Of a stretch of DNA of 57,805 nt, positions 1,755-56,360 are shown in pieces. The stretch comes from Parabacteroides sp. GTDB taxonomy: Bacteria; Bacteroidota; Bacteroidia; Bacteroidales; Tannerellaceae. The position numbers and the translations under genes are program-made. The stretch lies in contig JALFJR010000015.1 in the NCBI GenBank assembly GCA_022775005.1, positions 1 through 57,805 on the forward strand, given 5' to 3'. The notes beneath the pieces are model-generated. The model worked only from the letters and a program-made list of their open reading frames with translations. It ran no database searches and was not told the origin of the DNA. Positions within the stretch are counted from its first letter, which is position 1. Each line of letters starts with the position of its first letter.

Positions 1755-1792
1755 ATTAAATGCTTTTTTCACGTCTAATTGAATGTCTAAAT

Positions 1793-2923
1793 ATGTACAA
1801 ATACACCTTATCCAAATACGAGGCAGGCGGGCGAAACCGCTACACCTGCCCCCGTTGCGGGCAGCGGAAATGCTTCTCCCGCTATGTCGATACCGACACC
1901 AACGAGCCGTTGGAATACAACGTCGGCAAGTGCGACCATGTGAACAGCTGCGGCTATCACTACACCCCCTCGGAGTTCTTCCACGATCATCCCGCCCGAA
2001 AGCCGACCGGCTGGCAAGAGATGACAGGGACGAGGACTGCGAAGCCGCTTCCCACGCCTCCCCCACCCCGTCCGCTCTGCACGGTCGATCCCACCTATGT
2101 CCGCCGCAGTCAAAGCCCTCGCTCACAATTCGTCAGCTGGCTGACCATGCGCTTCCCGGAGAAAGCCGAAGCCATCCAAAAGGCGTTATGCGACTATCGC
2201 TTGGGAGCCACACGGGATGGAGGCGTCATCTTCTGGCAGATCGACCCACAAGGGAGGGTGCGCAGTGGCAAGGTGATGCACTATGGCACCGACGGGCACC
2301 GCACCGGCAATCCCTATTGGGTGCACACCCTGCTGCAACGGCAAGGGCAGCTACCCACCGATTGGACGCTGACGCAGTGCCTCTTCGGGGAGCACCTGCT
2401 CAGCCAACGTCCCGCCGACACCGTCTGCTTGGTGGAGAGCGAGAAGACCGCCATCATCTGCGCCCTCTTCTACCCCTCCTTTCTCTGGCTCGCCACGGGT
2501 GGCTGCGGGCAACTCTCCGTCGAGAAGCTCAAACCGCTCGTCGGTCGCAAGGTGGTGGTTTATCCCGACAGTGGTGCCCTGGAGAAATGGGAGGCTCAGC
2601 TAAAGCTCACCAAAGGGCTTAGCTACACATTGGTGCGTCAGTTGGAGGCCTATCCGTCCAACACCGACTTGGCCGACCTTATGCTGCACGAAGTGCCCAT
2701 CCGTCAAAAGCCGGAGGAGACACCTTCCACAACGCCCTCAGAAGCGGCACAAGCGGCCTCCGACCCCGTCAGTGATTCGTTGGCCACCAACGCCGTAGCC
2801 TCCCCGCAGAGCCAAGCAGAACAGCTCTGGGAGCAGATGCAGCAAGCCGATCCGGCTTTGGCCGCCTTAGCACAAGCTTTCGACCTGATTCCCGTCAGCA
2901 CGGAGGGCAACTGCCCCTTCTGA
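1793..2923 (+). CDS. Zinc-finger / toprim-like (DUF6371-type) replication protein
   Basis: A 376-residue protein. The N-terminus has a CPRC...KCF zinc-binding motif (Cys at about 19, 22 and 27) followed by a second Cys/His cluster (CDHVNSCGYH), as in the primase-like DUF6371 proteins of Bacteroidetes mobile elements. A toprim-like stretch follows at about residues 200-245: VCLVESEKTAIICA, then a TGGCGQ turn, then VVVYPDSG, i.e. acidic positions matching E...D.D of toprim folds. The C-terminus (after about 305) is low complexity, rich in Ala, Ser, Thr and Gln. I chose the ATG at 1793 because it puts the zinc motif at the usual distance; an in-frame ATG at 1760 lies among the GTCTAA repeats. 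Its likely role is primer synthesis or DNA handling for the element, together with the ATPase upstream. Confidence 0.75.
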   Translation: MYKYTLSKYEAGGRNRYTCPRCGQRKCFSRYVDTDTNEPLEYNVGKCDHVNSCGYHYTPSEFFHDHPARKPTGWQEMTGTRTAKPLPTPPPPRPLCTVDPTYVRRSQSPRSQFVSWLTMRFPEKAEAIQKALCDYRLGATRDGGVIFWQIDPQGRVRSGKVMHYGTDGHRTGNPYWVHTLLQRQGQLPTDWTLTQCLFGEHLLSQRPADTVCLVESEKTAIICALFYPSFLWLATGGCGQLSVEKLKPLVGRKVVVYPDSGALEKWEAQLKLTKGLSYTLVRQLEAYPSNTDLADLMLHEVPIRQKPEETPSTTPSEAAQAASDPVSDSLATNAVASPQSQAEQLWEQMQQADPALAALAQAFDLIPVSTEGNCPF

Positions 2924-2937
2924 TCCCTTCAAAAAGC

Positions 2938-3091
2938 CGATGGGCAACGACGCAAAAATCGTTGCCCATCCTTTTCAAAAACCATCTTCATCTCCCTAAA
3001 AAACATTGCCCATCGTTTGCCAAAACGTTGCCGATGTTTTTTCCAAACCCTCACCATCGTTTTCCACAGCAATGCCCATGGGAAATGGCTC
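2938..3091. repeat. 22-bp modular repeat array A (12-bp core + 10-bp spacer)
   Basis: Seven units start at 2938, 2960, 2982, 3004, 3026, 3048 and 3070, exactly 22 bp apart. Cores are CGATGGGCAACG (inverted), CGTTGCCCATCC, a degenerate one, CATTGCCCATCG, CGTTGCCGATGT, a degenerate one and CAATGCCCATGG. Spacers are 10 bp and mostly T-run then C then A-run (for example ttttcaaaaa). Units 1 and 2 form an 11-12 bp stem, so the 5' end could also act as a hairpin. The array fills the gap between two convergent genes, beginning 15 bp after one stop and ending 19 bp before the other. Confidence 0.85.
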
Positions 3092-3109
3092 ACACACGCA
3101 CGCCATGCG

Positions 3110-3505
3110 TTACTGCTCGATCACACCGTCGGTCATGGTGTACTGCTGCAAGGAGCCCTCTTGCGCCTGGATGCAGAGATAGATCAAAGGAGCCTCGCCC
3201 GTACACTTCGTGCAACGGCTCACGGCGGGCGCAATCCGCACGACACTGCCGGATTGCACAGGAACCTCGTTGCCATCCAAGGTGAAGATGCCCTCGCCGC
3301 TCAAAACGATGTAAAGCTCCTCGTTCAGCTTGTGATGATGGAAGAAGGGAACGGCTTGACCCGGAGCCAATGAGCCGAAAGAGACCTCCATGCCGGTGGT
3401 ACCGATCACCTCTTTCAAGAACGCCTTGCCCTCGAAAGTGGAAAGATTGCCTACTGTGGCTACGTTGTAGCCCTTGCCTGACTGTTGTAATGTTGCCTGG
3501 TTCAT
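3110..3505 (-). CDS. Cupin domain protein
   Basis: A 131-residue single-domain cupin. The metal motif is seen as FFHHHKLNEELYIVLSGEG at about residues 54-72 (two to three His and a Glu), and the second cupin half contains G..V.V..GS.V.I.P. The length fits stand-alone cupin-2 proteins. The substrate cannot be read from the sequence; two Cys in a CTKC pattern near residue 97 are unusual and could bind metal or form a disulfide. It is monocistronic: the upstream side has its own leader with repeats, and the downstream side is repeat array A. Confidence 0.8.
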   Translation of the reverse strand: MNQATLQQSGKGYNVATVGNLSTFEGKAFLKEVIGTTGMEVSFGSLAPGQAVPFFHHHKLNEELYIVLSGEGIFTLDGNEVPVQSGSVVRIAPAVSRCTKCTGEAPLIYLCIQAQEGSLQQYTMTDGVIEQ

Positions 3506-3562
3506 AATTTCTGTGCTTTAATTGATTCTTTGATACTGCAATATTACGACGCTTTGCGGAGG

Positions 3563-3610
3563 TTCGCAAGAGGTTACCTTTCCGCAAGTAGATTACTCCA
3601 AGGTTACTTT
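3563..3610 (-). promoter_or_regulatory. Direct repeats upstream of the cupin gene
   Basis: Read on the plus strand, the motif CGCAAG..G.TTAC occurs twice (near 3565 and 3583), and AGGTTACCTTT / AGGTTACTTTT occur at 3571 and 3601, 30 bp apart. Repeats spaced by whole helical turns 60-110 bp before a start suggest an operator for a dimeric or tetrameric regulator. No regulator gene lies next to it. Binding is inference. Confidence 0.35.
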
Positions 3611-3740
3611 TGCTGAGACTCAACCTCCATCCGTTTCCCCTTTTAGGGATAATTAACAATGTCTTGACGGGTATGCACCGAAATATTTCTCATGTCCTTT
3701 TGAGTCAATGATACCCAAATTCTAACCTCAGATGATATGC

Positions 3741-3813
3741 GTAGAGACGTTGCGTGCAACGTCTCGGAAATACCATCCAATAACCATGGAGACGTAGCAC
3801 GCTACGTCTCTAC
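3741..3813. repeat. REP palindrome pair upstream of the RAYT gene
   Basis: REP 1 (3741-3765) is GTAG followed by a palindrome around GACGTTGCGTGCAACGTC. REP 2 (3788-3813) is the opposite-facing form around GACGTAGCACGCTACGTC ending in CTCTAC. The pair faces inward as in bacterial interspersed mosaic elements. Equivalent pairs occur inside and after the adjacent transposase gene. An upstream open extension of the transposase frame merely reads through this pair. Confidence 0.85.
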
Positions 3814-3955
3814 AAAAGACCATCCATGTACGAAATACGATCCTTTATCCCCCTATTTACGTTCCAACATTACCATAAAAAAGGGGATCACGAATAGGAT
3901 GAACCTCATGTATTATTCATACCTTTGTCGAAAACAAATAAAAACCAAACCTGCT

Positions 3956-4555
3956 ATGGAAGAACTGTTTCAAAAAAGATTCCGCATCCCCTCGGCGAGG
4001 GCATCATGGCACAATTACCGTGAGGGCATGTATTTCATCACGATTTGCACTCACCAACAAAAAACCCATTTTGGTCGCATCATCCCCCGCCCCGGATTGG
4101 AAGAAAACCAGTTGGAGTTGACGGAGGTGGGGAGGTATGTAGAGGAAAATTTACAGCAAATCACCAGCCATTATCCTTATGCTGAAATTCCAGTTTTCGT
4201 GATTATGCCCAATCATCTCCATTTCATTATTATCATCGATTCCGCTGACGATTCAAACGGCAATGATGATTCCACATGTAGAGACGTTGCGTGCAATCAT
4301 TCCAACGATACCTCTAATCGAGACGTTGCACGCAACGTCTCTACGGGCAATGGATGTCAAATACACATGAAAATTTCTCCACAGAAAGGATCTTTGTCAA
4401 CTGTTATCCGTGGATTCAAATCCGCCATCACAAAATATGCCCGTGAACGAGGTATTGCATTCGCTTGGCAAACCCGGTTTTATGATCGTATCATCCGTAA
4501 TCAAAACGAATTGAATGCCATTGCAACATACATCGAGAATAATCCGTATAAATAA
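3956..4555 (+). CDS. REP-associated tyrosine transposase (RAYT, Y1/IS200-like fold)
   Basis: A 199-residue protein of the IS200-like Y1 transposase superfamily, RAYT branch. It is expected to cut and join single-stranded DNA at REP hairpins. Visible hallmarks are the start FRIPSARASWHNYREGMYFI, the HUH-type metal motif PNHLH at 85-89, GFKSAITKYAR near 153-163 and the closing WQTRFYDRIIRN...ELNAIATYIENNP at 171-197. I chose the ATG at 3956; the longer frame from 3737 only reads through REP palindromes. Residues about 108-130 (RDVACN and RDVARNVSTG) are themselves REP sequence, so a REP pair has been built into the coding region between two conserved motifs without breaking the frame. The protein ends just after the NP motif, slightly shorter than many relatives. 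Whether it is active cannot be told. Confidence 0.85.
   Translation: MEELFQKRFRIPSARASWHNYREGMYFITICTHQQKTHFGRIIPRPGLEENQLELTEVGRYVEENLQQITSHYPYAEIPVFVIMPNHLHFIIIIDSADDSNGNDDSTCRDVACNHSNDTSNRDVARNVSTGNGCQIHMKISPQKGSLSTVIRGFKSAITKYARERGIAFAWQTRFYDRIIRNQNELNAIATYIENNPYK
4278..4344. repeat. REP palindrome pair inside the RAYT coding sequence
   Basis: Positions 4278-4296 hold an incomplete REP (GTAGAGACGTTGCGTGCAA, missing its right arm). Positions 4319-4344 hold a complete inverted copy ending in CTCTAC. Together they encode part of the loop between the HUH motif and the C-terminal helices of the transposase. Confidence 0.85.
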
Positions 4556-4983: not shown

Positions 4984-5424
4984 ATGAGCAAAATGAAAGT
5001 GAACGCGGCTTTCCAGAAAGTCGCTATCCTGAAAAAGGAAGGGTATGTCAGCCGGGCGGTCACCTACTCGAAGATCGACGGCGAGGACGTGTTGGAGTAT
5101 GCGGCGCAGAACTCCGGTATCAACCAGGCGCAGTTGTCGGCGGCCATGTACGCCATCCGCCAGTCGTTTATCAACTTCCTCCTGAACGGCCACAGCGTGG
5201 AGCTGCCCGGCGTGGGCATCTTCCGGGTAGGCGTGAACGCCAAGATGGTGGACGAGGCTTCGAAGGTGTCGGTCGATCAGATCTATCGCCGGAAGATCCA
5301 CTACCTCCCCTCCATCGCCCTGAAGGACAAGCTGATCCGCATCTCGTTCAGCACCGATCCGACGGAAACGACCGCCGAGGAGGAGCCTACGGAAACCGAG
5401 CCGGAGAGTCCGGACATCGTGTAG
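4984..5424 (+). CDS. HU-like DNA-binding protein (Bacteroidetes HU/IHF-related family)
   Basis: A 146-residue protein. Residues 1-125 match the HU-like family common in Bacteroidetes: a basic start (MSKMKVNAAFQKV), a helical part with SGINQAQLSAAMYAI, then VELPGVGIFRVGV, which corresponds to the loop before the DNA-binding arm of HU. The tail after residue 125 is acidic and rich in Thr and Glu. It probably binds or bends DNA; relatives are usually annotated only as HU family. It has its own strong promoter and is followed by a UUCG hairpin and then the smalltalk gene, an arrangement often seen for this pair in Bacteroides. Confidence 0.8.
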   Translation: MSKMKVNAAFQKVAILKKEGYVSRAVTYSKIDGEDVLEYAAQNSGINQAQLSAAMYAIRQSFINFLLNGHSVELPGVGIFRVGVNAKMVDEASKVSVDQIYRRKIHYLPSIALKDKLIRISFSTDPTETTAEEEPTETEPESPDIV

Positions 5425-19535: not shown

Positions 19536-19667
19536 AGATGGGCAACGAGTGCTTTTTCGTTGCCCATTATTTTCCAAGACATTGCCCATCGTTTTTCAAA
19601 ACATTGCCGATGCTTTTTCAATGCGTTGCCCATCGTTTTTCAAAATCATGGGCAAAGAAAAATCAAA
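19536..19667. repeat. 22-bp modular repeat array B (12-bp core + 10-bp spacer)
   Basis: Six units start at 19536, 19558, 19580, 19602, 19624 and 19646. Cores are AGATGGGCAACG (inverted), CGTTGCCCATTA, CATTGCCCATCG, CATTGCCGATGC, CGTTGCCCATCG and TCATGGGCAAAG (inverted). Spacers are mostly tttttcaaaa-like. As in array A, the first unit is inverted and pairs with the second to make a strong stem. It lies between the end of rpiB and the start of the DUF3267-GNAT gene, both on the minus strand. Confidence 0.88.
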
Positions 19668-19687: not shown

Positions 19688-20125
19688 CTATTTCTGCAAA
19701 GGAATCTTGTTTACCCGACGTTGATGGCGACCGCCCTCAAAGGCCGTATCCAAGAAGGCATTGACCATACTCGTTGCGGCTACATTCGCCACGAAACGCC
19801 CTGGCATAACCAACACGTTAGCATCGTTGTGCTCACGTGCCAAGCGGGCGATCTCCTCGCTCCAGCAAAGTGCAGCACGCACGCCTTGATGCTTGTTGAG
19901 TGTCATACCAATGCCGTTGCCCGTGCCACAAATCGCAATGCCAGACGACACCTCAGCCGTCTCAATTGCAGCACCCAACTGATGAGCAAAGTCAGGATAG
20001 TCGCAGCTCTCAGTAGAGTAGCAACCATAATCCTTATACGATAACCCCCGTGCGTCGAGCACAGTCTTCACAAACTCTTTCAACTCGTAACCTGCGTGGT
20101 CACAACATAATCCTATTATCGCCAT
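19688..20125 (-). CDS. rpiB: Ribose 5-phosphate isomerase B
   Basis: A 145-residue protein of RpiB/LacAB type: start IGLCCDHAGYELKEFV, active-site region ESCDYPDFAHQLG, then the GIAICGTGNGIGM signature, and R-A-A-L-C-W with a Cys near the binding pocket. It interconverts ribose 5-phosphate and ribulose 5-phosphate in the non-oxidative pentose phosphate pathway. It starts three bases after the transketolase stop, so the pair is one operon. Confidence 0.93.
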   Translation of the reverse strand: MAIIGLCCDHAGYELKEFVKTVLDARGLSYKDYGCYSTESCDYPDFAHQLGAAIETAEVSSGIAICGTGNGIGMTLNKHQGVRAALCWSEEIARLAREHNDANVLVMPGRFVANVAATSMVNAFLDTAFEGGRHQRRVNKIPLQK

Positions 20126-34422: not shown

Positions 34423-34576
34423 CGTTGCCCATAGCATCAAAAAACATTGCGGATAGTTTTGAAAAACGTAGCCCGTAGTTTTCTTTTTCGTTGCCCATAG
34501 TTTTTCGGAGCGTTGCCCGTAGTTTTTGGAAACGATGGGCAATGTTTTCTATCACATAGGGCAATACTTTTTGAAA
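34423..34576. repeat. 22-bp modular repeat array C (12-bp core + 10-bp spacer)
   Basis: Seven units start at 34423, 34445, 34467, 34489, 34511, 34533 and 34555. Cores are CGTTGCCCATAG, CATTGCGGATAG, CGTAGCCCGTAG, CGTTGCCCATAG, CGTTGCCCGTAG, then the inverted CGATGGGCAATG and CATAGGGCAATA. Spacers are T-rich then A-rich. Here the last positions of the core drift together (TAG instead of TCG), suggesting local expansion from one ancestor unit. The array lies just upstream of the GH20 start, between it and the SusD terminator. Confidence 0.88.
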
Positions 34577-52505: not shown

Positions 52506-55500
52506 TTAGAATGTAACATTAAGACCCAAGCTGATGGACTTCATCATCGGATAATTGTAACCATCACCACTACCAGTCGTCAAGTCAGGATCGGAAGTAC
52601 CGATATTCGAAACGTTGATGTCCTTCGTGCGCTTGTAGAGCGGCGACCAGGTAAAGAGGTTCTCGCAAGAGAGATAAACACCCACCTTACTCAAATGCAC
52701 TTTCTTAGTCCACTCTGTCGGCAGGTTGTAACCAATCTGCAAGTTCTTCAAACGCAGGTAGGCCACGTTCTGCAAATAACGTGTGTTGGCATTCTGATGA
52801 CCGCTGTAGAACGGACGATAATAACCGGCGTAACGCGGCATGTAGGCATCCGGGTTCTCCGGTGTCCAGTAATTATCCACATGCCAAGTCGGCATCTGGT
52901 TGTACGGACGGTTGTACTGGCCCCAGAATACAGAAGCCTCGTTGGAAGGATACCAATCCTGTTTACCCACACCCTGGAAGAAGGCATTAAACCAAATATT
53001 GTTCCAATCGCCGGAGAGGGTGAAGCTATAGATATAACGCGGCTCCTCATTACCGATAATCTTGCGGTCTCCCGGATCATCCACCGTATTCTTGCCACGA
53101 TCAATATAGCCATTGCCATTCAAGTCCTCAAACTTCACGTCACCCGGATAGAGCTTGTAAGTCTTTGAGGTCTGCATCAACGGGTTATAATACTTCTGAC
53201 CGGCTGCAACGGCACCTGCCTCAGCAGCATCGATGCTGGCCTGATCCTGCCACAAACCATTGGAAACATAGCCCCACAACTCACCGATGCGCATGCCCTC
53301 GTAGTAGTTACCCGCCAAAGACTGGTTGGCGTTTGTAGAAAGGGTATAGTTCGCATTGTTAAACTTGTCGATCACGGAGTAGTAGTCAGCCAACGTAGCC
53401 TTGATGCTATAATTGAAGGGCTTGCCGGCCAAATCAAAACGATCATGCCACTCTAAAGAGATCTCATAACCACGGGTGGTCATGTCGGCATAGTTGCCCT
53501 TCGGAGAGCTGGCACCAAACACATCAGGCACCGTCGGGCCCTTCACGATCATGTCCGTTGTCTTACGGATGTAGTAGTCGCCACTAACCGTCAAGCGGTT
53601 GTCGAAGAAGCCTAAATCAGCACCTACGTCCCAAGTCGTAGCCGTCTCCCAAGTCAAGCTACCGGGTAAAGCGGCGGGTGAGGACATGTAGTTCTGGCGC
53701 AAACCGTTCAAGATAAAGCTGGAGGTCGAGATGCCCAAAGTTTGCTTATATTGATAGTTGCTCAAACCAGCGGCATTACCCAGCGAACCCCAAGAGAAAC
53801 GCAGCTTTGCGTTAGAGACATACTTGGACTCTACGTTGAACCAAGGCTCCTCAGAGATACGCCAACCTGCTGACGCAGAGGGGAAGAAAGCCCAGCGCTC
53901 GTTGTCGGGGAAACGAGAAGAACCATCGTAACGACCGTTCACCTCCAAGAGATAGCGGTTGTCAAAGTCGTAATTCAAACGGAAGAAAGCACCACCAAAC
54001 TGGTAAGCGTTCCAAGAAGAGGTGATCTTGCGGTTGTCCGTACCCAACGCCAAGTTGATGTTATCCACATCCTCTGTCAACAGGTCATCGTTGTAACCAT
54101 AGAGCTCTTTCGTTTGAGACTTCTCGTAGTTCCAACCACCCATAATCTTGAAGTTGTGCACCTCATTCAACGTGTCCTCAAACTCCGCATAGAGGTTCGT
54201 TGCGATATAGCTATTGCTGCGCTTGGTCTCCGCGATGTTAGAACGTGTACCAGAGATATACTCGATAATGCTCTCACCGTTGGCATCTACCGAACGAGCA
54301 TACGGAGAACGTACCTGCTTCTTCGTCTTATCATAAGTAGTCCGCTTGTAGGTAAAGTCACCGTTCACACGCAACCGATCATTCAGGAACTTCGCATTGA
54401 AAGAGGCGGTGTTCTTGAACACCTCGTTCGTGGTCGTGATACCGCTCTTACCGTAGAGCATGTCACCCACCGTATAAACGGCACAATAGGTCAACGTACC
54501 ATCCGGGTTAAACATCGGTGAAGAGGGGTGTGCCTCGTCGGCAATGTTACGCCAGATTACACCCGAACCCTCTGAATAGGTGATTGGGTTATAATATTTG
54601 TTCTGCGAGAACTCGAAGTTATTGCTGATCTTCAACCACGGAGTAGCTTGATAACCACCCTTGAAACGCATGTTATACGTTTTGTACTTATCCGTCTGCG
54701 TGTCGTTGTCAAACAAACCGTTGTACTTGTAGAAACGACCGGAGAGGTAGTAGTCGAACTTACCATCAGAACCGGAGATGGAGAGATTCTGATTGTGGCT
54801 GAATGTACGATCCTTATACAGCAAGTCATACCAATCTGTGCCTTCCGGATAATAGACGTAACGTCCCTTTGTTCCGATCGAACCGTCGGAGATCACCGTA
54901 CCGAAGTCACCCGTCTCATGGCGACGCTTGTACTCCTCCAACCAAGCAGTAGAGAACTGCTGCGTTTTGTTGATACCAGAGGGGTTAGACTGATTGAAGC
55001 CATAGTACGCATCGTAGAAGTGCTGCGCCCATACGTAACCATCGGAAACCACATCAGGCACGTTCTGCGGCGACTGGAAGTTGTAGCTGGATGAGTAAAC
55101 CACCTGCGGCTTGCCCTCTTTTGCGTTCTTGGTCGTAATCAAAACAACACCGAACGGCGCACGCGCACCATAGATAGCGGAAGCAGCTGCATCCTTCAAG
55201 ACGGAAACACTCTCAATATCATCCGGATTCAACATCGAGGGATCACCCTCCACACCGTCGATCAACACCAAAGCACTACCGCCGTTGATAGATCCGGCAC
55301 CACGCACGTTGAAGTCGGCTGTACGGCCCGGCTTACCATCGGCCAGGGAGATGTTCAAGTTAGGAACGACACCCTCCAACATCTGTGTAGCATTCGCTGT
55401 CGGACGACCCTCAAAAACATCACTGGTCACCTGCTCCACGGCACCGGTCAAGTTCACCTTCTTCTGCGAACCGTAACCTACGACTACGACCTCATCCAGA

Positions 55501-55895
55501 TTTTGCGTATCCTCTTTTATAGCAATTTGCAATGAGGTACGATTGTTCACAGGTACATCTTGCTGCACATAACCAATGTAAGAAACTTGCAACACGGCAT
55601 TAGCGGGAGCTTCGATCGAGAAATTACCATCAAAGTCGGTAATCGTACCATTTGTAGTACCTTTCACGACCACATTCGCACCAATAATTGGCTCTCCTTT
55701 CGTATCTACCACCTTACCGGTCACTTTACTTATTTGCTGCTGAGCGTTCAAGAAAGCAGCAACATCTTTTTTCACGATGGGTAACTTTGTCGCCATAGCG
55801 TCATTACCCGATCTTGCGGCAAAAGCGACTCCTGAAATTCCCACGAGCGGAACAATTAACAGAGTCCTTGAGAATGAGTGTTTAAATTGACTCAT
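52506..55895 (-). CDS. SusC/RagA family TonB-linked outer-membrane transporter
   Basis: A 1129-residue protein. Signal peptide to about residue 27 (VAFAA), followed by a short extension and a carboxypeptidase-regulatory-like domain (about 57-140, VTGKVVDTKGEPIIGANVVVKG in parts). The TonB-linker LDEVVVVGYGSQKKVNLTGAV is the classic SusC form. The plug includes VSVLKDAAASAIYGARAPFGVV and the barrel ends in NVTF. It is paired with the SusD lipoprotein downstream; transport energy comes through TonB. Confidence 0.95.
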   Translation of the reverse strand: MSQFKHSFSRTLLIVPLVGISGVAFAARSGNDAMATKLPIVKKDVAAFLNAQQQISKVTGKVVDTKGEPIIGANVVVKGTTNGTITDFDGNFSIEAPANAVLQVSYIGYVQQDVPVNNRTSLQIAIKEDTQNLDEVVVVGYGSQKKVNLTGAVEQVTSDVFEGRPTANATQMLEGVVPNLNISLADGKPGRTADFNVRGAGSINGGSALVLIDGVEGDPSMLNPDDIESVSVLKDAAASAIYGARAPFGVVLITTKNAKEGKPQVVYSSSYNFQSPQNVPDVVSDGYVWAQHFYDAYYGFNQSNPSGINKTQQFSTAWLEEYKRRHETGDFGTVISDGSIGTKGRYVYYPEGTDWYDLLYKDRTFSHNQNLSISGSDGKFDYYLSGRFYKYNGLFDNDTQTDKYKTYNMRFKGGYQATPWLKISNNFEFSQNKYYNPITYSEGSGVIWRNIADEAHPSSPMFNPDGTLTYCAVYTVGDMLYGKSGITTTNEVFKNTASFNAKFLNDRLRVNGDFTYKRTTYDKTKKQVRSPYARSVDANGESIIEYISGTRSNIAETKRSNSYIATNLYAEFEDTLNEVHNFKIMGGWNYEKSQTKELYGYNDDLLTEDVDNINLALGTDNRKITSSWNAYQFGGAFFRLNYDFDNRYLLEVNGRYDGSSRFPDNERWAFFPSASAGWRISEEPWFNVESKYVSNAKLRFSWGSLGNAAGLSNYQYKQTLGISTSSFILNGLRQNYMSSPAALPGSLTWETATTWDVGADLGFFDNRLTVSGDYYIRKTTDMIVKGPTVPDVFGASSPKGNYADMTTRGYEISLEWHDRFDLAGKPFNYSIKATLADYYSVIDKFNNANYTLSTNANQSLAGNYYEGMRIGELWGYVSNGLWQDQASIDAAEAGAVAAGQKYYNPLMQTSKTYKLYPGDVKFEDLNGNGYIDRGKNTVDDPGDRKIIGNEEPRYIYSFTLSGDWNNIWFNAFFQGVGKQDWYPSNEASVFWGQYNRPYNQMPTWHVDNYWTPENPDAYMPRYAGYYRPFYSGHQNANTRYLQNVAYLRLKNLQIGYNLPTEWTKKVHLSKVGVYLSCENLFTWSPLYKRTKDINVSNIGTSDPDLTTGSGDGYNYPMMKSISLGLNVTF

Positions 55896-55961: not shown

Positions 55962-56173
55962 GATCAGTTAAATTACGTATCCGCTTCAATTCTGTTACAT
56001 TTATGATACTAAAATTTAAGTTAACTAACCAACTGGCTTACCAGCTTTAACAATATACATTTCATTTACGAGGGCAAATATACACATATTTTAATAGGAT
56101 TGGTTCTATAAAATGACATAAAAAGTTTCATTTTTGACAGCAACCGCTAAATCATCCCCATTCTATTAAAAAA

Positions 56174-56305
56174 CAATGCCGATGTTTTTAAAAAAGCATC
56201 GGCAATATTCATAAAAATCACGGGCAACGTTTATTAAAACCATGAGCAATGTTTTAGAAAACTATCAGCAATATTTTAGAAAAAGATGGGCAATGTTTTT
56301 CGGAA
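56174..56305. repeat. 22-bp modular repeat array D (12-bp core + 10-bp spacer)
   Basis: Six units start at 56174, 56196, 56218, 56240, 56262 and 56284. The first core is CAATGCCGATGT; the others are inverted: GCATCGGCAATA, TCACGGGCAACG, CCATGAGCAATG, CTATCAGCAATA, AGATGGGCAATG. Spacers are ttttaaaaaa, ttcataaaaa, tttattaaaa, ttttagaaaa (twice) and tttttcggaa. Weaker copies may flank both ends (56152 and 56306). It lies between the rplI terminator and the susC promoter region. The rest of this 494-bp gap is AT-rich without a gene. Confidence 0.85.
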
Positions 56306-56321
56306 CGTCCATCAGGCATAT

Positions 56322-56360
56322 ACAAAAAAAAGAGGTATGTCATTTCACTGACATACCTCT
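56322..56360 (-). terminator. Terminator of the rpsF-rpsR-rplI operon
   Basis: AGAGGTATGTCA (56331-56342) pairs perfectly with TGACATACCTCT (56349-56360), loop TTTCAC. On the minus strand a run of T follows (complement of AAAAAAA at 56324-56330). Confidence 0.85.

Follow-up and report, generated by a model that had tools for sequence, protein, structure and literature searches.

Intergenic arrays with a 22-bp phase near gene ends in Parabacteroides: putative assembly sites for a DNA-binding protein

A genome of Parabacteroides sp. (G000; 3,135,997 bases in 109 contigs) contains about 40 arrays, intergenic by crude ORF calls, in which a short asymmetric unit recurs at a step of 22 bp, mostly in six or seven copies and often just past stop codons. 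The phase, polarity, unit number, site-specific constraint, placement at 3' ends, conservation at many orthologous sites and array-limited similarity of some copies were computed directly. From these properties of the sequence, we tentatively propose that the arrays may well be a dispersed, selected set of putative DNA-binding sites at gene ends, each of which would be a cis-acting assembly site for an oligomerising DNA-binding protein with a boundary role.

Four of the arrays are in the window, i.e., the whole stretch of 57,805 nucleotides of G000 that was analysed. The preliminary description had claimed four arrays and 26 units with an exact 22-bp step, and the unit layout bore this out: the arrays contained 7, 6, 7 and 6 units and all steps were 22 bp, with five of the 26 units degenerate (at least five mismatches to CGTTGCCCATCG). 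The array end points given there had included the trailing spacer. The arrays and two genes considered below are as follows.

2938..3081, no strand assigned: array 1, seven units, polarity - + ? + + + + (by fewest mismatches; third unit degenerate)
3737..4555, + strand: RAYT-like gene, NF047646 (REP_Tyr_transpos) at 62.5 bits against a cut-off of 80, with an MPNHLH motif
4984..5424, + strand: gene for an HU-HIG family protein, PF18291 at E 8e-18, one of 19 matches in G000
19536..19657, + strand: array 2, six units, polarity - + + + + -
34423..34566, + strand: array 3, seven units, polarity + + + + + - (-); final unit degenerate
56174..56295, - strand: array 4, six units, polarity + - - - - - (>>>>>< when read on the minus strand)

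Array 1 sits between convergent genes, 14 bp past the stop codon of the gene at 1760-2923 (+) and 28 bp from that of a cupin gene (3110-3505, -). The stop codon of an rpiB-like gene (19688-20125, -) is 30 bp from array 2. Array 3 is flanked by a glycoside hydrolase family 20 gene on the 5' side and a SusD-like gene on the 3' side, and array 4 by a SusC/RagA gene on the 5' side and the ribosomal protein L9 gene on the 3' side. The intergenic location described earlier held for the main ORFs, whereas arrays 1 and 2 are overlapped by ORFs that we took as spurious. When the bare consensus was scanned in both orientations, the top 22-bp runs in the window scored 19, 18, 17 and 7 and the fifth scored 3, and the best run at any other period from 15 to 30 was at most 5. 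Chance, raised in the preliminary description as a possible source of such phased cores, gave 22-bp runs of at most 5 in 60 first-order Markov sequences modelled on the whole window.

To count arrays genome-wide, three patterns (two direct units, tail-to-tail and head-to-head; up to three mismatches) were searched in G000 and matched at 83, 24 and 3 places, respectively, the last two each being seen on both strands; reversed-pattern controls gave 0 matches for all three. Stretches around the matches (37, plus the window) were scanned with a trained 20-position profile, which yielded 43 runs, or 42 rows after a single-unit run was dropped, with 241 scored units; one array (L051) accounts for two rows, being split by an off-phase step. 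The reversed sequences of these stretches gave 0 runs. All counts are lower bounds, since the patterns require well-conserved neighbours and degenerate or differently arranged arrays are under-counted, and since the later profile search (below) was capped at 84 scored candidates for each genome.

A sequence-only profile built from 23 arrays was then searched in 38 genomes of the genus including G000, and 19 of the 38 had a match at E 0.001 or better. Strong matches were confined to G000 and two same-genus relatives, G044 and G052 (best E 1e-33 or lower to 3e-33), with 1e-8 to 1e-3 in the others. Stretches around the profile matches gave 42, 41 and 20 array rows in G000, G044 and G052 (an assembly that is 84% complete), 103 rows altogether. 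A TGCC pattern matched 14 times within the genus, in 7 of the 35 other genomes, against 0 for its control; in 85 genomes from elsewhere the pattern had 7 matches and the reversed control 11, so nothing above control. Collections of phages, plasmids and viral contigs, queried with one array or one pattern at a time, gave no match, and array 2 was unmatched in the plasmid collection.

The step was strict in every arrangement. Among adjacent core spacings of up to 70 bp in the 103 rows, 389 of 427 were exactly 22 bp, 26 were 44 bp and 4 were 66 bp, measured with no phase assumed in arrays located by a finder that presupposes a 22-bp step; 22 bp was the modal spacing for each of >>, <<, >< and <>, where the arrowheads denote unit orientation. 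The unit consensus, AAAA-C[GA]TTGCC[CG][AG]TN[GA]-TTTT, is asymmetric: TTGCC occupied positions 3-7 in 540 of 603 units and the mirrored profile positions differ from it, so that symmetry is confined to the A/T frame of the unit. The unit number was 6 in 63 of the 103 rows and 7 in 23, i.e., 6 or 7 in 86.

Orientation was also ordered. Polarity changed once in 78 of the 103 rows; exceptions to this one-switch form were 18 rows with more changes (two in 11, three in 7) and 7 rows with none. The total was 121 changes, versus a mean of 191 when orientations were shuffled inside arrays (500 shuffles, minimum 167), and a lone reversed unit was in the final position in 56 of 60 cases. The commonest form, AAAAAA-(five direct units)-(one inverted unit)-TTTTTT, spans about 132 bp and made up 19 of 42 rows in G000, 15 of 41 in G044 and 5 of 20 in G052. 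Thus, the earlier statement that cores occur in either orientation without shifting the phase was right about the phase, whereas orientation is polarised rather than random. The proposal that cores share one side of the helix stood only in the approximate sense of two turns: with 10.5 bp to a turn, a 22-bp step comes by arithmetic to 2.1 turns, and each unit is therefore rotated by about 34 degrees from the one before, not exactly on the same face. Intrinsically bent spacers, also proposed there, found no support (A-tract phasing z, mean -0.3; 0 of 87 arrays above 2).

Apart from the A and T runs, no column exceeded 52% in the 30 bases on either side of 38 G000 arrays, i.e., no shared leader or tail was seen. 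A longer repeat, comprising an array and other repeated blocks, is common to five G000 loci (L042:9197-9945, L055, L071, L074 and L051), and other repeated blocks are common to several G044 loci. Two G052 loci (L144, L152) appear by eye to contain extra units in which the spacer is GAAC..GTTC rather than GTTTT..AAAAC, still at a 22-bp step. Further, intergenic repeat distances in the G000 stretches had a second excess at 41-44 bp, besides the doubled 22, and with the arrays masked 10 loci were left at distance 42.

Comparison with the relatives pointed to selection on the units. By their flanks, arrays of G000 could be paired with arrays of G044 or G052 in 46 cases (best flank matches 75-100% identical). 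Unit number was equal in 27 of these pairs and differed by whole units in 19, some of the latter being uncertain matches or involving arrays truncated at the end of a contig. In the window, the array 1 site has matching array rows in both relatives (L133 in G044, L153 in G052), the G044 orthologue of array 2 (L120) has identical polarity and 93% sequence identity, and that of array 3 (L162) has identical polarity. The nearest named relative found was Parabacteroides distasonis strain An897, whose counterpart of the SusC-like protein (52506-55895) shares 97% identity. In this strain, window positions 56010-56325, including array 4, have 9.1 kb of different DNA (L004:773-9886) in their place, between the L9 and SusC-like regions.

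Substitutions were counted in 24 equal-length pairs from 19 G000 arrays (148 units), after three doubtful pairs had been dropped. They affected 3.2% of positions in TTGCC plus T10 (28/888), 17.9% at the other six core positions (159/888) and 9.6% in the spacer (142/1480), where the T and A runs had 5-10% and the centre 18-20%. Gene conversion among copies could be the source of part of this constraint. The preliminary description had also suggested a mobile repeat whose cores are inverted where they stand. The polarity pattern was equal in 23 of the 24 pairs and orientation differed in 1 of 148 units; the cores are therefore not flipping in place, and we rejected in-place inversion.

The positions of arrays relative to genes were examined for the 36 G000 arrays that had at least four units and both neighbours, a gene being taken crudely as an ORF of at least 150 codons. 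For array 1 the right neighbour in these statistics was a longer ORF without a family match (3090-3659) that overlaps the likely cupin gene, and array 2 was judged against a longer ORF overlapping the rpiB-like gene. A stop codon was within 30 bp of 18 of the 36 arrays; random placement gave a mean of 3.2 and a maximum of 10, with 0 of 2000 runs reaching 18, and with unweighted gaps the mean was 8.1 and the maximum 17. A start codon was within 30 bp of 7 arrays (null, 3.3). Converging genes enclosed 12 of the 36 (null, 5.7; 19 of 2000 runs reached 12). A stop codon was likewise within 30 bp of 17 of 37 arrays in G044 and 12 of 15 in G052, at sites that are in part the same as those of G000.

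The strict two-turn spacing in all polarities, the base-specific constraint and the narrow size range together point to an ordered protein assembly, and the position at gene ends suggests a boundary. We infer protein binding, oligomerisation of the protein and the action of the boundary as follows. An array, mostly of six or seven copies of an asymmetric site, exactly 22 bp or about two turns apart and usually closed by a unit of opposite orientation, would allow an oligomerising DNA-binding protein to coat about 132 bp and to end symmetrically. Lying, as it often does, just past stop codons, such an array would probably act as a boundary for genes in either orientation, in transcription, supercoiling or chromosome organisation. 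Whole arrays would have been copied to new places and then retained by selection. The preliminary description had suggested that the units may be sites of a nucleoid or regulatory protein; constraint on particular bases, a phase that holds strictly in all polarities and stems that do not covary (below) speak for the sites, while the protein is so far a putative one. With their fixed phase, narrow unit number, set polarity and apparent base-level selection at gene ends, the arrays could provide a handle on chromosome organisation or insulation in these gut bacteria.

One speculative candidate for the binder is the HU-HIG family. A 722-bp DNA segment at the HU-HIG gene (4984-5424) is 88% identical to one on G000 contig C88, where an array lies directly upstream of the close paralogue. 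PF18291 matches, which include ordinary HU proteins because the model also picks up those of E. coli and others, were plentiful in most genomes of the genus that were searched, with 19 in G000, 17 in G044, 23 in G016, 14 in G013, 10 in G048 and 8 in G001, but 2 in G052; outside the genus, a genome of another genus in the same family had 9, and three genomes from other families had 1-2 each. The DNA upstream of seven HU-HIG genes included an array in two counterparts (L069; L119 in G044) and a 22-bp pair of other sequence at L050, and the rest had no array of the TTGCC-core family. HU-HIG genes are generally not near arrays, and G052 has arrays yet only 2 HU-HIG matches.

A somewhat unlikely alternative is that the arrays are bidirectional intrinsic terminators or stabilisers of mRNA 3' ends. 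On this reading the hairpin would arise from the + - junction and the T run that goes with it, and the surplus direct units would be half-stems that had been duplicated. This would suit arrays standing just past stop codons, some convergent gaps almost filled by the array (L063, L066, L075), and the first five bases past the last inverted unit, where T made up 60-78% per position in 74 arrays. RNA folding was strong, with z of -1.6 to -7.1 in 10 arrays, so that a role as RNA is conceivable; >< junctions pair their conserved cores regardless of the variable positions. However, tail-to-tail pairs showed no covariation (9.18 of 12 matches versus 9.19 shuffled; 99 pairs). Each unit therefore seems to be read as such, which, even if gene conversion between copies may contribute, favours sequence-specific reading of single units over a paired structure. 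An RNA or cruciform stem was accordingly rejected as the selected property; the folding z-scores may simply follow from the inverted core and speak neither for nor against it. Further, a hairpin needs no five direct units, among which the phase is as strict as at the hairpins; genes with a one-sided stop codon within 30 bp face either array end (about 10 versus 6, counted by hand); and, by eye, hairpins of the ordinary type seem to adjoin arrays 3 and 4 separately.

We considered it unlikely that the arrays are non-autonomous, MITE-like mobile elements in which the 22-bp units are transposase sites, five at one end and one at the other, and any host function is secondary or absent. Similarity limited to arrays with unrelated flanks speaks for such an element, and equally for the copying of whole arrays in the assembly-site proposal above. 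Among three G000 arrays, L064, L056 and L050, similarity is 82-88% across 133-136 bp (L056/L064, 88% over 133 bp; L050/L064, 84% over 135 bp), and the matches stop at the array ends. L064 is 92% identical over 132 bp to a G044 array with different flanks, whereas its right flank matches another G044 contig (87%) and its left flank a third (74%); in G044 and G052 alike, the best matches of the two flanks are thus on separate contigs, although the left match is at 74-75% only and one G052 match is near a contig end. For the 19 >>>>>< arrays, median identity was 0.705 in the array versus 0.267 in the flanks (171 pairs). Further, L119 (G044) and L137 (G052) each lie between flanks that border two different arrays in G000. 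From the array-limited matches and mixed flanks, some arrays seem to have been copied whole or used as recombination points, and the moving thing seems to be the whole array, not the core.

The > ... < ends of the arrays, the sites of MuA and TnsB, which are also about 22 bp, and the presence of the RAYT-like gene 0.65 kb away from array 1 fit a transposase as well. However, 38 arrays showed no clear target-site duplication of the kind expected of a MITE with a DDE transposase: at any offset, 4-base matches were present in 3 of the 38 at best, and 20 shuffles reached 2, though duplications from old insertions may have decayed. Further, numerous orthologous arrays are found at matching sites and under constraint. 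Apart from the RAYT-like gene, the neighbours annotated within the window included no transposase next to an array. The palindromes around and inside the RAYT-like ORF as called, which have a GTAG tag (e.g., GTAGAGACGTTGCGTGCAACGTCTC), differ from the array units; they number 17-25 per Mb (both strands) in the G000, G044 and G052 stretches. A Pfam Y1_Tnp search matched none of four genomes and missed the RAYT-like gene, so other RAYTs may exist; we withdrew the absence of RAYTs as a conclusion because one such gene stands in the window itself. Ordinary minisatellite slippage, assembly artefact or chance is very improbable: the whole-unit differences in 19 of 46 matched pairs would suit slippage, but the units differ from each other yet hold phase through inversions and number mostly 6-7, the reversed-sequence and reversed-pattern controls gave 0, and matching arrays occur in three separate assemblies.

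Phasing at 22 bp extended beyond this sequence family. By eye, several of the weak profile matches in other genomes of the genus were 22-bp-phased sites with other cores, e.g., CCTGCCCAGG (L111), CGATGCCCATCG (L113) and GCGATGCC[GT]ACC (L112), and others had no clear array. We also took a position-blind sample of evenly spaced 20-kb pieces, 400 kb each, from two one-contig genomes of the genus (G013, G016) and counted, for each distance from 12 to 60, the intergenic loci with an exact 8-base repeat. Distance 22 had 15 loci in each genome, a few of which are two parts of one place (L231, L276), versus 78 and 61 for the remaining 48 distances summed. G013 was also high at distances 14 (13 loci) and 21 (9 loci), the latter at least partly AT-rich repeats. 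Six 50-kb pieces of E. coli K-12 had 0 loci at distance 22 and at most 5 at any distance.

Grouped by eye, the 22-bp families were GTCGAAAAGGTTTTCGAC-like in G013 and GTGAAAAAGCTTTTTCAC-, AAACACGTACGTGTTT- and GCAGATACGTATCTGC-like in G016; a CCCGATGATTTT family was seen by eye in G048, whose sample was partly picked at matches. Many of the families look palindromic by eye, and an inverted copy of the 8-mer was present in 9/15 and 7/15 loci versus 33/78 and 24/61, not clearly an enrichment. Since the step recurs in unrelated families of sister species, spacing rather than sequence may be the conserved property. It is a quite doubtful extension that Parabacteroides has a whole class of 22-bp-phased nucleoprotein arrays, with several unrelated, species-specific families per genome that share the two-turn step; each family would have a dedicated reader from an expanded group of DNA-binding proteins (HU-HIG being one candidate), and together they would form a fast-evolving code for boundaries or chromosome organisation at gene ends. 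Other periods were also seen: palindromes like TACACCGTGGTACA at a step of about 24 bp (by eye) upstream of an HU-HIG gene at about 7994 in G044 (L130), and 23-bp tandem repeats at L266:17181 in G048 and at L239, L244 and L247 in G013, including a CACCCGGGTG-like family in G013.

We found no recognised description of these arrays as a catalogued repeat family in the literature searched, which scarcely covered subscription journals. Plasmid iterons of the 22-bp type are phased protein-binding units at a single origin locus beside a rep gene. The arrays have the same phase but instead lie at about 40 loci between unrelated genes, and no rep gene was among the array neighbours annotated within the window. 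The preliminary description had mentioned short direct repeats in Porphyromonas genomes. Nelson and colleagues reportedly described 22-nt tandem repeats of Porphyromonas gingivalis W83 in 2003; these are likened to the arrays by period alone, which is of equal length. The consulted part of a later paper mentions 22-nt repeats in W83 and does not give their locations (PMC4596501). The same part describes BrickBuilt, a minisatellite/MITE of P. gingivalis with a 23-nt repeat in 1 to 22.8 direct copies, mostly with a leader and/or tail, at 19 intergenic loci in ATCC 33277 (PMC4596501). As described there, BrickBuilt resembles the arrays in being short tandem repeats at intergenic loci. In contrast to its direct 23-nt step and its leader or tail at most loci, the arrays have a 22-bp step with inverted units and no shared leader or tail, though five share the longer repeat. 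TAACTGA direct repeats of Beggiatoaceae, present in some Bacteroidetes too, are likewise a short motif that recurs in numerous small arrays within a genome; according to the portion of the source consulted, however, they are heptamers, mostly just upstream of start codons and nearly all direct (PMC4679880).

The nearest known kind is REP/BIME. These elements are extragenic and species-specific, number more than 100 units per genome, occur in both orientations with regular spacing, are bound by several proteins in E. coli and have suggested roles in termination and chromosome organisation, in the parts of the sources consulted (PMC2817692, PMC3733652). The arrays are similarly extragenic by crude ORF calls, with more than 100 units (241 in G000), in both orientations and regularly spaced. 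Most of the membership features tested nevertheless differed. A REP unit is an imperfect palindrome that can fold into a hairpin by itself, whereas the array unit is asymmetric; the arrays have no constant GTAG or CGTC tag at one end (of 603 cores, 70 contain GTAG and 35 contain CGTC); and BIME orientation alternates, in contrast to the single polarity switch and fixed 22-bp phase seen here. A cognate RAYT would be flanked by its own repeat; the RAYT-like gene of the window, itself below the model cut-off, is ringed by the other, GTAG-tagged palindromes and is a doubtful candidate for this role. The arrays and REP/BIME have the same habitat and perhaps do the same work.
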